Shown here: piece by piece, positions 1 through 10,302 of the stretch
How the letters are laid out: each line of letters starts with the position of its first letter
Position numbering within the stretch: the stretch's first letter is position 1
Assembly (NCBI GenBank): GCA_030153605.1
Contig: JASKLO010000019.1
Location: 1-32,060 of the forward strand
Length of the DNA stretch: 32,060 nt
DNA from: Thermosipho sp. (in: thermotogales)
GTDB taxonomy: Bacteria; Thermotogota; Thermotogae; Thermotogales; Fervidobacteriaceae
Direction: 5' to 3'
Notes under the pieces: model-generated
What the model was told of the DNA's origin: nothing
Seen by the model: the letters and a program-made list of their open reading frames with translations, nothing else
The model's database searches: none
Translations under genes and position numbers: made by a program

Positions 1-125
1 TTTTTTATTTCGTTCCTTTTCTTGGGTTCAGTCCAATAGTTATATTTTATCACTTCCGGGGGTGTTTTTTATTTCGTTCCTTTTCTTGGGTTCAGTCCAT
101 TTTATTTTTCGGGGGTGTTTTTTGT
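1..125. repeat. Tandem direct repeats, origin uncertain
   Basis: A 35-bp unit ending in GGGTTCAGTCCA occurs identically at 1-35 and 65-99. Each copy is followed, after a short AT-rich spacer of different length, by CGGGGGTGTTTTTT (57-70 and 110-123), which starts the next unit; the third unit then diverges. The spacers are about 21 and 10 bp, too short and uneven for a CRISPR array. Read on the minus strand the repeat contains ATTGGACTGAACCC, which loosely resembles the ATTGGACAG near the insertion-sequence end at the right edge of the window. A decayed transposon end is therefore possible but unproven. The first copy touches the window edge, so more copies may lie outside. I see no gene in 100-243. 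Confidence 0.7.
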
Positions 126-243
126 TGTTTTACTTACTATATTTAGTGATAATTTCCAATAATCAAAACTAGAATCCCTTTTCTATAATCTAAAAATCTT
201 CCAAAACAATTTTCTTAAAAACAAATTTTTTATAATTCAAAGT

Positions 244-1506
244 TCATACGTAAGCATTTAAATCAAATAATCCATGCCCAGATAATGTGAAAACTATTAC
301 TTTTTCTTTTCTTTCTTTTTTTGCATTCAAAGCTTCCTTTATTGCTCCTGCTATTGCATGGGCAGATTCAGGAGCGGGTACTATACCCTCAAGTTTTGAA
401 AATAATTTCGCTGCCTTAAAGGTTTCCTCTTGTGAAAATGCTTGAGCTTCAATCAGATTATTTTTTAATAAAGCCGAAATTATTGGAGCAGCACCGTGAT
501 ATCTAAGTCCTCCTGCGTGTATTGAAGGTGGGACAAAGTCTTTACCAAGGGTATACATTTTAAGCATTGGAGTAAAACCTGCAGTATCACCAAAATCGTA
601 CCTGTATTCTCCTTTTGTTAATGTCGGACAACTTTCTGGTTCACATGCAATAAATCGTAGATTTTCGCCATCTAGCTTTTCTGGAATAAAAGGAAGAATT
701 GTTCCACCAAAATTTGAACCTCCGCCATGACATCCTATTATAATGTCTGGTTTTAGCTCAAGTTTTTCAAATTGCTTTTTCATTTCAAGGCCAATAATGG
801 TTTGATGAAGTAAAACATGATTTAAAACACTTCCAAGAGCGTATTTTGCGTTGTTTTTGTTTAACACTTCTTCCATAGCTTCACTTATTGCGATACCTAA
901 GCTTCCTGGATGATCTTCTGTATATTTTCTTCCAACTTTCGTATTCCTGCTTGGGGAAGGTGTTACGTTTCCTTCAAACAAATTTATTAGGTTCTTCCTT
1001 GTAGGTTTTTGAAGGTAACTTATTCTAACCATATATACGTTTACTTTTAAACCGTATTTTATTCCCGCATATGAAAGAGCACTTCCCCATTGGCCGGCAC
1101 CTGTTTCAGTATATAAAACTTCTGTACCAGAAATTTTATTAAAATATGCTTGAGCTAAAGCTGTATTTGTTTTGTGACTTCCTGTAGGACTAACGCCCTC
1201 ATATTTGTAATAAATTTTTGCAGGGGTTTCCAAAAATTCTTCTAAAAATTTTGCTCTGATTAAAGGAGTTGGTCTGTAAACAGCATATTCTTTTAAAATT
1301 TCTTCTGGAATATCAATATACCTATCAACATCGTTTGCCTCCTGTTCTAATAAAGGACCAGGAAAGATTTTTAAAAGTTTTTCAGGAGTAATAGGTTTCT
1401 GAGTTTCTGGATCAAGTGGCGGTTCTAAATTAAATGGTAAGTCAGGAAGAACATTATACCAACTTTTTGGCATCTCGTAATAATTCAAATGAACATATTC
1501 TCTCAT
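244..1506 (-). CDS. trpB2: Tryptophan synthase beta chain, TrpB2 type
   Basis: This PLP enzyme of about 420 residues should condense indole with L-serine (or O-phosphoserine) to give tryptophan. The PLP lysine lies in the conserved SPTGSHKTNTA stretch, followed by GAGQWGSALSYAG and the phosphate-binding GGGSNFGG. The long N-terminal region (YYNVLPDLP-like) and the TGSHKxN form are typical of the TrpB2 branch, which usually works without TrpA; no trpA or other trp gene is nearby. Two adjacent ATGs (1507-1509 and 1504-1506) follow AAAGGAGGAG; the second has the better spacing. A longer reading from 1548 would start inside a terminator hairpin and is rejected. The gene is monocistronic here and is preceded by a leader peptide and attenuator. 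TrpB2 enzymes may also scavenge indole or have another role. The family call is firm; the exact physiological role is inferred. Confidence 0.95.
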   Translation of the reverse strand: MREYVHLNYYEMPKSWYNVLPDLPFNLEPPLDPETQKPITPEKLLKIFPGPLLEQEANDVDRYIDIPEEILKEYAVYRPTPLIRAKFLEEFLETPAKIYYKYEGVSPTGSHKTNTALAQAYFNKISGTEVLYTETGAGQWGSALSYAGIKYGLKVNVYMVRISYLQKPTRKNLINLFEGNVTPSPSRNTKVGRKYTEDHPGSLGIAISEAMEEVLNKNNAKYALGSVLNHVLLHQTIIGLEMKKQFEKLELKPDIIIGCHGGGSNFGGTILPFIPEKLDGENLRFIACEPESCPTLTKGEYRYDFGDTAGFTPMLKMYTLGKDFVPPSIHAGGLRYHGAAPIISALLKNNLIEAQAFSQEETFKAAKLFSKLEGIVPAPESAHAIAGAIKEALNAKKERKEKVIVFTLSGHGLFDLNAYV

Positions 1507-1532
1507 CATATCTCCTCCTTTTTTATATAAAT

Positions 1533-1562
1533 AAAAAAAGCCGGGCATTAAACCTGCCCGGC
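1533..1562 (-). terminator. Intrinsic terminator in the trpB2 leader (attenuator arm 3:4)
   Basis: On the minus strand GCCGGGC (1562-1556), a nine-base loop and GCCCGGC (1546-1540) are followed at once by seven U (1539-1533). This is a textbook intrinsic terminator, but it sits 30 bp before the trpB2 start codon and downstream of its promoter. Its natural role is therefore conditional termination. The first three bases of the stem (1562-1560) are shared with the competing antiterminator helix. Confidence 0.92.
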
Positions 1563-1629
1563 AATTGTCCTAATAATAAATAACTCACCACGACAAAAGT
1601 GGCGGACAATTGCCCTTTTTCCACCACCA
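1560..1629 (-). promoter_or_regulatory. Tryptophan attenuator: alternative RNA helices of the leader
   Basis: Three mutually exclusive pairings can be drawn in the leader RNA (minus strand). First, UGGUGG within the Trp codons (1626-1621) pairs with CCGCCA (1605-1600), with one U-G pair. Second, GGCAAUUGUCC (1614-1604) pairs perfectly over 11 bp with GGACAAUUGCC (1570-1560); this is the antiterminator. Third, the terminator stem starts at 1562 and overlaps that helix. A ribosome stalled at the first Trp codon would hide the first pairing and leave the antiterminator free. A ribosome reaching the stop codon at 1585 would cover 1614-1604 and allow termination. This matches the 1:2 / 2:3 / 3:4 logic of enterobacterial trp attenuation. 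The pairing is seen in the sequence; the regulation is inferred. Confidence 0.85.
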
Positions 1630-1695
1630 AACAAATTCATTATTAAAATTGATATTAAAAACCCTCATTTTTTCGGTTGTTAACTTTTCGTTCAA
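1585..1695 (-). CDS. trpL: Trp leader peptide (36 aa, WWW)
   Basis: This short reading frame starts with TTG (1695-1693), 6-7 bases after a good ribosome site (AGAGGTGA), and ends with TGA at 1587-1585. Residues 22-28 read VWWWKKG: three successive TGG codons at 1629-1621, plus a fourth Trp as the last codon before the stop. Four tryptophans in 36 residues, placed directly ahead of an antiterminator/terminator pair and a tryptophan-synthesis gene, are the signature of a translation-sensing leader peptide. An internal ATG (1668-1666) is a weaker alternative start because it lacks a ribosome site. It is too short to be called by usual gene finders. I am confident of its role from its layout, not from homology. 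Confidence 0.88.
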   Translation of the reverse strand: MNEKLTTEKMRVFNINFNNEFVWWWKKGNCPPLLSW

Positions 1696-1716
1696 TTTTT
1701 TCACCTCTTATTAAGA

Positions 1717-1745
1717 ATTATAAATTTAAATTTAATTTTTGTCAA
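1717..1745 (-). promoter_or_regulatory. Consensus sigma70-type promoter of trpL-trpB2
   Basis: On the minus strand TTGACA (1745-1740) and TATAAT (1722-1717) are separated by exactly 17 bp, matching the consensus at every position. Transcription should begin near 1711-1709, only a few bases before the ribosome site of the leader peptide. The promoter itself looks constitutive, so control would rest on the attenuator. Confidence 0.9.
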
Positions 1746-1763: not shown

Positions 1764-1787
1764 ATTTTGTATACTGGGATACAAAAT
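1764..1787. promoter_or_regulatory. 24-bp palindrome, possible Crp/Fnr-family site
   Basis: ATTTTGTAT (1764-1772) and ATACAAAAT (1779-1787) form a perfect inverted repeat with a 6-bp centre, the geometry of a Crp-type operator. Its centre (1775.5) lies 41.5 bp upstream of the start expected from the -10 box at 1805-1810, where class II Crp activators bind. A further half-site-like TTTTTGTATAC lies at 1810-1820. The second gene of the operon encodes a Crp/Fnr-type protein, making autoregulation plausible. The site is also about 65 bp upstream of the predicted trpB2 transcript start. Confidence 0.55.
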
Positions 1788-7938: not shown

Positions 7939-10302
7939 TTATAAATAATCATATAAAGATTTTATCTGTAAAACATTTTTTGTATCTAAAGTTTTTTTCT
8001 CGCCAGGAAATAAAACGAAAAAGTTTTCTTTTTCGTATAATTTTTCAGCTTCTCTTACTTCCACACCTATAGCAGGTTTCTTACATGTAATAACGGCATG
8101 TCCGTTTAAATATTCTATTTTTATTTCTGGATTTTCTGGTTTGAATTTTCTCAAATCAGCAAGTATTTTGTGATTCTCGTAAGTTATTCCTTCGACATTT
8201 AAATAAATTTTAGCAAAGCTCTTTTCAATTAGTTCTTTTTTCAAATTAAATTCATCAATTTTAACTACTGAGTCTTCATTTAGTTTTGAAAGATACTCTT
8301 TTTCAAAAATAATTTTTCCAGAAATATCTCTTATAACTAGTTTTAATTCACCAATAGTTTCTTTACCATCGTTAACTACAAACAAAAACAATTTTTCTCC
8401 TTTTTGCTTTAAAATTGGTAAGATTTTTGAATAAAAATTTTTAGTATAGAAATACAAAGCCTTTGGCCTTTTAAAATAATCTATAGCAGACCAGCTAAAG
8501 ACTGGCCAAGAATCATTCAGTTGCCAGTAAATTGTACCTGCTGTCTTATATTTTCTACTTCTCCAATGTTCTACACCAAATTTTATTGCTTCAGCCTGGT
8601 TTAGCTGGGAAAGGTAAACAAACGATTCAAAATTTTTAGGAAGGCCAAATCTACCTGATATAAATCTAATTAATCTTTCCATACCTTCAACTTGCTTGTT
8701 GTGATTAAGCATCACATCTGAGAAGATTTCCCTTTTTTCACTTTTATCAAAAAATTCAATTGTCTTTATATCTGGGGCAGCTTGAAAACCAAATTCACTC
8801 ACAAATCTTGAAGAATCTTCCTCATACAGTTTGTAGTCTTGCCATCCTGACCATACGTTCCAAACATGTGTATCTCCTGCTCTACTAGAATTGGCTTTAA
8901 ATCCCGAACCGCTATAAGGACTTGATGGCCAGTAAGGCCTTGTATTGTCTTTTTCAACACAAATTTTTGGAAAATCTTCAAGATAAAGTGTGTTACCCAG
9001 GTTTTTATTATTGACCTTTAAATCAAATCCCCATTCTTCAAAGGCCCAGTTATTTTCATTGTTTCCACACCAGATTATAATGCTTGGATGATGTCTTAAT
9101 TTCAAGACATTTTCAATAACTTCCTGATTAGATAACTTCCTAAACCAATCAAGATGATCTGGATATTCACCACAAGAAAACATAAAATCTTGCCATACTA
9201 AGATACCTAGTTTGTCACACGTTTCGTAAAATACCTCTTTTTCGTATATCCCTCCACCCCACACTCTTAACATATTAATATTTGCTTTGTATGCCATTTC
9301 TAAAAGCTTTACATAATCTTGATCCTTTAAAAAACTTAAAATGTTATCCGCAGGAATCCAATTTGCCCCTTTTACGAACACTTTTTTGCCATTTATCACA
9401 AATATAAAACTTTCGCCATCTTCATCTTTTTCCTTAAGAATATCAATAGTTCTAAATCCTATCTTTTTTGTTTCTGAATAAACTTCTTTGCCATCTTTTA
9501 CAAGTATAAATGAAACATCGTATAAATTACTTTCGCCAAGATCTCTTGGATACCAATACTTAAGGTTTTTTATCCTTTTAAACCCTTTAAATTTATAGTT
9601 TTCTCCTTCTTTAAAAACAGGCAATGAAATAATTTCATTACCATCTAATAAAATTCTTACTTCGTATTTTGAAGGATCTTTAATGTTTTCAACGTATCCT
9701 TCAAAACATACGAGACCTTTTAAATCTTTCAAATAGGAAGTTGAATATTTTATTTTGCCATCAACTAATTCTTCAATGTATACGTCTCTATAAATCCCGC
9801 TTGTTACAATTCTCGCACCCCAATCCCAACCAAAAGAATATTGTGCCTTTCTAATATAAACTCTTGGGGGAAATTCTGTAGCGTGCAGTTGCCCGTATAT
9901 TTGCTCAAGTCTTTTTGCATGCTGTGTAGCAGAATAAATGATAACCTTTATTTTGTTTTCTCCTTCTTTTAGCAAATGAGAAACATCATATCTGTAAGTC
10001 AAAAACATGTTTTCGGTTTTTCCTAAATAAACATTGTTTAAGAAAATTTCTGAAATTGTATCAATTCCTTCAAAAACAAGAAAATAATCTTTTTTTTCCA
10101 GTTTTTCAACAAAAAAACTTTTTTCATACACCCATGTTTTTTCTTCAAGCCTCTTAAATTCTTTTTCATTGAGACCTACATATGGATGAGGCAAAAAACC
10201 TTGTTCAACAAGATCACCATGAACTGTTCCAGGGACATTTCCTATAAAATTAAATTCATTTTCTAAATCATAAACTTTCCATTTTCCATTTAAAGAAATG
10301 AT
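7939..10302 (-). CDS. Beta-mannosidase-like glycoside hydrolase family 2; unusual start codon
   Basis: A cytoplasmic GH2 enzyme with a sugar-binding jelly roll, an immunoglobulin-like domain, a TIM barrel and C-terminal beta domains. Numbering from the first possible TTG (10323), the acid/base is Glu423 in WCGNNEN and the nucleophile Glu510 in FVSEFGFQ. The WDWG motif (about 166-169) and the NNEN acid/base motif are typical of beta-mannosidases, which release mannose from non-reducing ends. No ATG opens this frame. TTG (10323) and GTG (10311) lack ribosome sites, whereas GGGGTGGT (10314-10307) sits 5-8 bases before ATC (10302) and ATT (10299). Starting there gives (M)ISLNGKW, where homologues usually begin. 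I use 10302 provisionally. The frame from TTG would overlap the phosphorylase gene by 8 bp. Confidence 0.88.
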   Translation of the reverse strand: MISLNGKWKVYDLENEFNFIGNVPGTVHGDLVEQGFLPHPYVGLNEKEFKRLEEKTWVYEKSFFVEKLEKKDYFLVFEGIDTISEIFLNNVYLGKTENMFLTYRYDVSHLLKEGENKIKVIIYSATQHAKRLEQIYGQLHATEFPPRVYIRKAQYSFGWDWGARIVTSGIYRDVYIEELVDGKIKYSTSYLKDLKGLVCFEGYVENIKDPSKYEVRILLDGNEIISLPVFKEGENYKFKGFKRIKNLKYWYPRDLGESNLYDVSFILVKDGKEVYSETKKIGFRTIDILKEKDEDGESFIFVINGKKVFVKGANWIPADNILSFLKDQDYVKLLEMAYKANINMLRVWGGGIYEKEVFYETCDKLGILVWQDFMFSCGEYPDHLDWFRKLSNQEVIENVLKLRHHPSIIIWCGNNENNWAFEEWGFDLKVNNKNLGNTLYLEDFPKICVEKDNTRPYWPSSPYSGSGFKANSSRAGDTHVWNVWSGWQDYKLYEEDSSRFVSEFGFQAAPDIKTIEFFDKSEKREIFSDVMLNHNKQVEGMERLIRFISGRFGLPKNFESFVYLSQLNQAEAIKFGVEHWRSRKYKTAGTIYWQLNDSWPVFSWSAIDYFKRPKALYFYTKNFYSKILPILKQKGEKLFLFVVNDGKETIGELKLVIRDISGKIIFEKEYLSKLNEDSVVKIDEFNLKKELIEKSFAKIYLNVEGITYENHKILADLRKFKPENPEIKIEYLNGHAVITCKKPAIGVEVREAEKLYEKENFFVLFPGEKKTLDTKNVLQIKSLYDYL

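Follow-up and report, generated by a model that had tools for sequence, protein, structure and literature searches.

A predicted tryptophan attenuator in front of a stand-alone trpB2 gene in Thermosipho and its occurrence across Thermotogota

Analysis of a 32,060-nucleotide stretch of a Thermosipho sp. genome (contig JASKLO010000019.1, the whole of which is called the window here) points to a classical ribosome-mediated transcription attenuator in front of a stand-alone trpB2 gene, through which trpB2 would respond to charged tRNA-Trp and its product would act as a starvation-induced enzyme of indole salvage. We put the probability of this reading, which was derived from sequence, at roughly 87%. 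It is supported by the presence of all parts of such a device, calculated folds in which these exclude one another, conservation across the phylum, covariation of the helices, and the absence of trpA, trpC and trpF from the host. The mechanism is a textbook one; what appears new, judged by the open literature, is that its target is a stand-alone trpB2 and that it recurs phylum-wide in Thermotogota. An earlier note on this DNA knew of no such description for a stand-alone trpB2 in Thermotogales, and likewise we found no description of a trpB2 attenuator in the searchable open literature, although the large survey of Lopatovskaya et al. 2010 (cited in PMC4833913) may cover Thermotogota.

Anatomy and calculated folds of the leader

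The minus strand of the window carries the following features, given in the order of transcription:

1717..1745, minus strand: sigma-70 type promoter TTGACA-17-TATAAT, with the -35 element TTGACA at 1745-1740, a spacer of 17 nt and the -10 element TATAAT at 1722-1717 (sliced sequence and consensus scan)
1701..1709, minus strand: ribosome-binding site of the leader peptide, AAGAGGTGA (sequence slicing)
1585..1695, minus strand: trpB2 leader peptide of 36 codons, MNEKLTTEKMRVFNINFNNEFVWWWKKGNCPPLLSW, from the start codon TTG (1695-1693) to the end TGG-TGA (1590-1585) (strand read and sliced by coordinate)
1621..1629, minus strand: three Trp control codons, WWW, codons 23-25 (sequence slicing; Trp run in 62/62 phylum leaders)
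1597..1629 (outer limits approximate), minus strand: region 1:2 protector hairpin, in which a CCGCCAC stretch pairs with the Trp codons (minimum-energy fold, 37 and 70 C)
1604..1614, minus strand: region 2, 5' arm of the antiterminator, GGCAATTGTCC, 15 nt past the first base of the first Trp codon
1560..1570, minus strand: region 3, 3' arm of the antiterminator, GGACAATTGCC
1540..1562, minus strand: intrinsic terminator hairpin 3:4, 8 bp with a loop of 7, arms GCCGGGCA (1562-1555) and TGCCCGGC (1547-1540) (sequence slicing and terminator scan)
1533..1539, minus strand: U7 tract of the terminator, seven T (sequence slicing)
1520-1513, minus strand: ribosome site of trpB2 (sequence slicing)
244..1509, minus strand: trpB2, 421 aa, start codon ATG at 1509, TIGR01415/NF009057 (family models)

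In the consensus scan the promoter scored 12/12 and the terminator stem comprised 8 bp, while promoter-like matches per se are no commoner at the leader than in shuffles. An alternative in-frame GTG at 1704 would extend the leader peptide to 39 codons and overlaps the ribosome site. The two antiterminator arms (1614-1604 and 1570-1560) are perfectly complementary over 11 bp, a helix that was equalled in 0 of 100 shuffles. Read as an attenuator, the region comprises a short ORF, translatable by its sequence, with its own ribosome site and a run of cognate codons, an intrinsic terminator between this leader and trpB2, and a mutually exclusive antiterminator whose 5' arm would be free on stalling at the control codons; furthermore, codons and product fit each other, as WWW precedes a gene of the tryptophan synthase beta type. 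The earlier note had described the promoter, the ribosome site, the leader of 36 codons with its WWW (codons 23-25) and final Trp, the 11-bp antiterminator and the U7 tract, and we recovered every one of them at its place on the minus strand, together with the three bases that terminator and antiterminator have in common (1562-1560).

With ample tryptophan, the ribosome would pass WWW and run on to the stop codon, covering region 2, so that region 3 would join the terminator and transcription would end near 1533. When charged tRNA-Trp is scarce, the ribosome would instead halt at the Trp codons with its front edge about 12-13 nt past the first base of the first of them; region 2 would then be exposed and pair with region 3, the terminator would be blocked, and trpB2 would be transcribed, its product converting indole to tryptophan. 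Actual stalling, termination and read-through, as well as the reaction of the enzyme in the host and the source of its indole, are parts of this scheme that we infer.

At 70 C, RNA parameters predict the 1:2 hairpin and the terminator for the complete leader. When the sequence through 1616 is masked, to mimic a ribosome held at the Trp codons, the antiterminator with a 5-bp remnant becomes the best fold. Two points count against the reading: the antiterminator removes just three of the eight terminator pairs, so that a 5-bp hairpin remains, and at 37 C with the same mask the equilibrium fold still favours the terminator, the switch showing only at 70 C. The antiterminator would be expected to form first during transcription at either temperature, and the growth temperature of the host is presumably high, judging from its relatives.

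A pattern scan of the host genome found no other leader combining WWW and a terminator, the remaining matches looking coding or unrelated, and an Rfam scan of the window (including Trp_leader, T-box and riboswitches) returned no family at gathering score. Upstream, the neighbour of trpB2 is pcp (pyroglutamyl-peptidase, 1828-2460) in the opposite orientation; because pcp is divergent from trpB2, the terminator would act on transcripts of the leader's own promoter. Between these two divergent genes we also observed an operator-like palindrome, TTTTGTAT-CCCAGT-ATACAAAA (window 1765-1786), which is not clearly retained in the nearest relative, G028. Window 1-135, behind trpB2 at the contig end, has a 35-nt direct repeat (1-35 and 65-99) with a partial third copy.

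Conservation and covariation in Thermotogota

The comparison covered 103 genomes, drawn from the order and then from the whole phylum, 75 of which carry trpB2, and 74 upstream regions were read (groups are coded f for family, g for genus and G for genome). We take f1 to contain relatives of Thermosipho and Fervidobacterium, and g13 to be Thermotoga. A Trp-rich leader with terminator and antiterminator was found in 62 of the 74 regions, spanning 23 genera and 9 families. Two of the remaining 12 regions are cut by contig ends and ten are without a leader (seven in g13, one in g12 and two in g2). The expectation that other Thermotogales share the attenuator held apart from some exceptions, as all g13 genomes, two of f1/g2 and one of g12 are without it. 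At the Thermotoga-like (g13) trpB2 the WWW leader is absent, and the gene is arranged head to head with an ORF resembling, by eye, a fumarase subunit. The genus g32 is Marinitoga, and the Marinitoga lauensis locus L040 and G085 carry an identical leader.

A WWW leader ORF is present in 57 of 67 full-length real regions and in 12 of 10,050 shuffled ones (0.1%), an excess of about 700-fold. A promoter scoring at least 9/12 precedes 56 of the 62 leaders, and 55 have a ribosome site. All 62 retain the Trp run, whereas conservation does not extend to the final Trp. The antiterminator of 58 of the 62 leaders starts 12-16 nt past the opening base of the first Trp codon, the distance at which the front edge of a ribosome stalled at that codon is expected.

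The antiterminator helices comprise 47 distinct sequences that still pair, and 54 out of 62 beat dinucleotide shuffles (p<=0.05). In most family alignments 88-100% of the cells are paired, compared with 13-69% in controls with one arm slid, and two-sided helix changes occur in six family sets (f1/g2-3, f2, f3, f8, f9 and f11); the full f8 set aligns badly (63% paired), its g21-23 part reaching 97%. Among the eight sequences of g1 and g4, the closest relatives of the window, the antiterminator is near-invariant, with zero two-sided changes and one broken pair in G028, and since the helix hardly varies there, the covariation argument rests on the wider comparisons. Conserved Trp codons and co-varying helices in relatives, which the earlier note had named as the check on its proposal, were thereby found across the phylum, and anatomy and phylum comparison together support its putative ribosome-stalling Trp attenuator on a stand-alone trpB2.

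TrpB2, its pathway and alternative readings

The window TrpB2 scores 663 bits against TIGR01415 (cut-off 519) and 151 against the TrpB1 model (cut-off 392), and its nearest solved structures are chains of 6hul, 4qys and 6hte. Searches of the host genome, which is 98.1% complete, found no trpA, trpC or trpF, nor did the TrpB2 protein as query reveal a second TrpB (trpB1); tryptophanase as an indole source is likewise absent from the host, where only a fragmentary match was obtained (E 7e-4). Some genomes of the phylum are incomplete, but all four genomes of the host genus agree on these missing trp genes. In these genes the host has the make-up of salvage-only Trp metabolism, in which trpB is kept and the indole-supply genes trpA, trpC and trpF are lost. 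Because it has no genes for making indole glycerol phosphate or for releasing indole, the indole would have to come from outside. The earlier note had regarded trpB2 as a genuine tryptophan-starvation gene, which our reading retains, and "not merely" an indole scavenger, a contrast that does not stand: with trpA, trpC, trpF and trpB1 missing, outside indole only could be used, and in a host lacking an internal indole supply, starvation gene and indole scavenger become one reading. Additionally, serA-like genes are present below the family cut-off, which fits a supply of phosphoserine without proving one.

Across the phylum, trpA over the cut-off is lacking in 53 of the 62 attenuator genomes (the nine with trpA being G002, G022, G052, G053, G054, G059, G100, G101 and G102), and trpA, trpC and trpF are present in eight of the ten trpB2 genomes that have no attenuator, but not in the other two; such counts are not independent, as the attenuator absences need about three changes on the TrpB2 tree, in which the sequences of the phylum cluster with weak support. 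Thermotoga is the genus in which TrpB2 was studied, and T. maritima TrpB2 has reportedly been proposed as an indole rescue protein; the Thermotoga-like genomes keep the Trp pathway and are without the attenuator. As a separate observation, full-length tnaA-like genes occur only in f10 (G079-G081 and G091-G096), where the trp pathway is present and trpB2 is not, the reverse of the trpB2-only pattern.

The attenuator might be real and sense tryptophan while the main job of TrpB2 lies elsewhere, e.g., in serine deamination, so that Trp control would be incidental, which we consider unlikely. Serine deamination by TrpB2 was predicted earlier from phyletic patterns, but the TrpB2 enzymes of T. maritima and S. 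solfataricus have poor serine deaminase activity (PMC1854888), and titles cited in PMC12727527 present TrpB2 as an O-phosphoserine-dependent tryptophan synthase and as taking part in indole salvage in Thermococcus. Moreover, the Trp control codons in 23 genera link trpB2 to tryptophan.

Highly improbable is a TnaC-like leader, at which free tryptophan would stall the ribosome and the gene would be on when tryptophan is plentiful. Trp-containing leaders do control tna operons and the window leader does end in Trp-stop, yet it is WWW and not the final Trp that is conserved, the antiterminator of nearly all leaders (58/62) begins one ribosome edge past WWW, the controlled gene makes tryptophan rather than degrading it, and an intrinsic terminator follows the leader. 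Hardly credible is a reading in which the hairpin is a usual terminator for transcription arriving from upstream and the WWW ORF arose by chance, for common as intergenic terminators and ordinary as 8-bp stems are, pcp points away and leaves no upstream transcript needing an end, WWW leader ORFs far exceed their frequency in shuffles, and the antiterminators covary.

Relation to known systems and biological meaning

The predicted trpB2 attenuator resembles enterobacterial trpL in its Trp codons within a short leader, the alternation of 1:2, 2:3 and 3:4 pairing, the intrinsic terminator and the read-through on starvation, which is here a prediction. It differs in controlling one trpB2 gene instead of trpEDCBA and in having three Trp codons instead of two; furthermore, the sequence is unrelated, the phylum is another one, and the attenuator genomes are usually without any other trp gene. 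Predicted Trp leaders outside Proteobacteria are also known from actinobacterial trp attenuators, such as those of Corynebacterium diphtheriae trpB1EDGC and trpB2A (PMC1262725), but these control whole or split biosynthetic operons, and the C. diphtheriae 'trpB2' lies in an operon with trpA, whereas the gene studied here is of the TIGR01415 type and stands alone. Within the phylum, a WW(W) leader plus terminator precedes four trp operons (in G081, G094, G052 and G059), which share the leader type and differ in that trpE- or trpD-headed operons are controlled; Trp attenuation in Thermotogota is consequently not limited to trpB2. These operon leaders lie near 8083 (L209), 7442 (L210), 4875 (L211) and 6867 (L212), and no WWW leader was found before the Thermotoga-like trpE operon. 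Chlamydia trachomatis trpRBA is comparable as a pathway remnant that turns outside indole into tryptophan under tryptophan control; there, however, TrpB works with TrpA, and control is exerted by the TrpR repressor and YtgR (PMC7755916).

Outside Thermotogota, a WWW leader with a terminator was found at three of about 79 trpB2 loci, namely in a Melioribacter roseus assembly (L072), a Melioribacteraceae MAG (L075) and a Flavobacteriales MAG (L061). These relatives belong to Ignavibacteria and Flavobacteriales, and their leaders are found some 100-200 nt ahead of the gene; L072 and L075 each show a further hairpin, followed by a T tract, and L072 by eye a bulged antiterminator too. Since the three stand apart from Thermotogota on the TrpB2 tree, their attenuators are probably independent gains.

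For Thermotogota themselves, we lean towards the view that trpB2 was already under Trp attenuation in the ancestor of the phylum and that this control persisted on a solitary salvage gene while the pathway was lost repeatedly. The physiological role of TrpB2, which has been debated on the basis of the Thermotoga enzyme, would then be starvation-induced indole salvage in most of the phylum, with the Thermotoga lineage as the exception. The roles assigned to TrpB2 so far are those of a tryptophan synthase, an indole rescue enzyme and a serine deaminase, and a Trp-codon attenuator in 23 genera adds evidence from control logic that trpB2 is wanted at tryptophan shortage. In addition, a large covarying set of predicted classical attenuators is gained from a thermophilic phylum, the one in the window having no match among the Rfam families. 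Overall, the reading predicts that many Thermotogota unable to make tryptophan can live on the indole of their neighbours, i.e., by cross-feeding.
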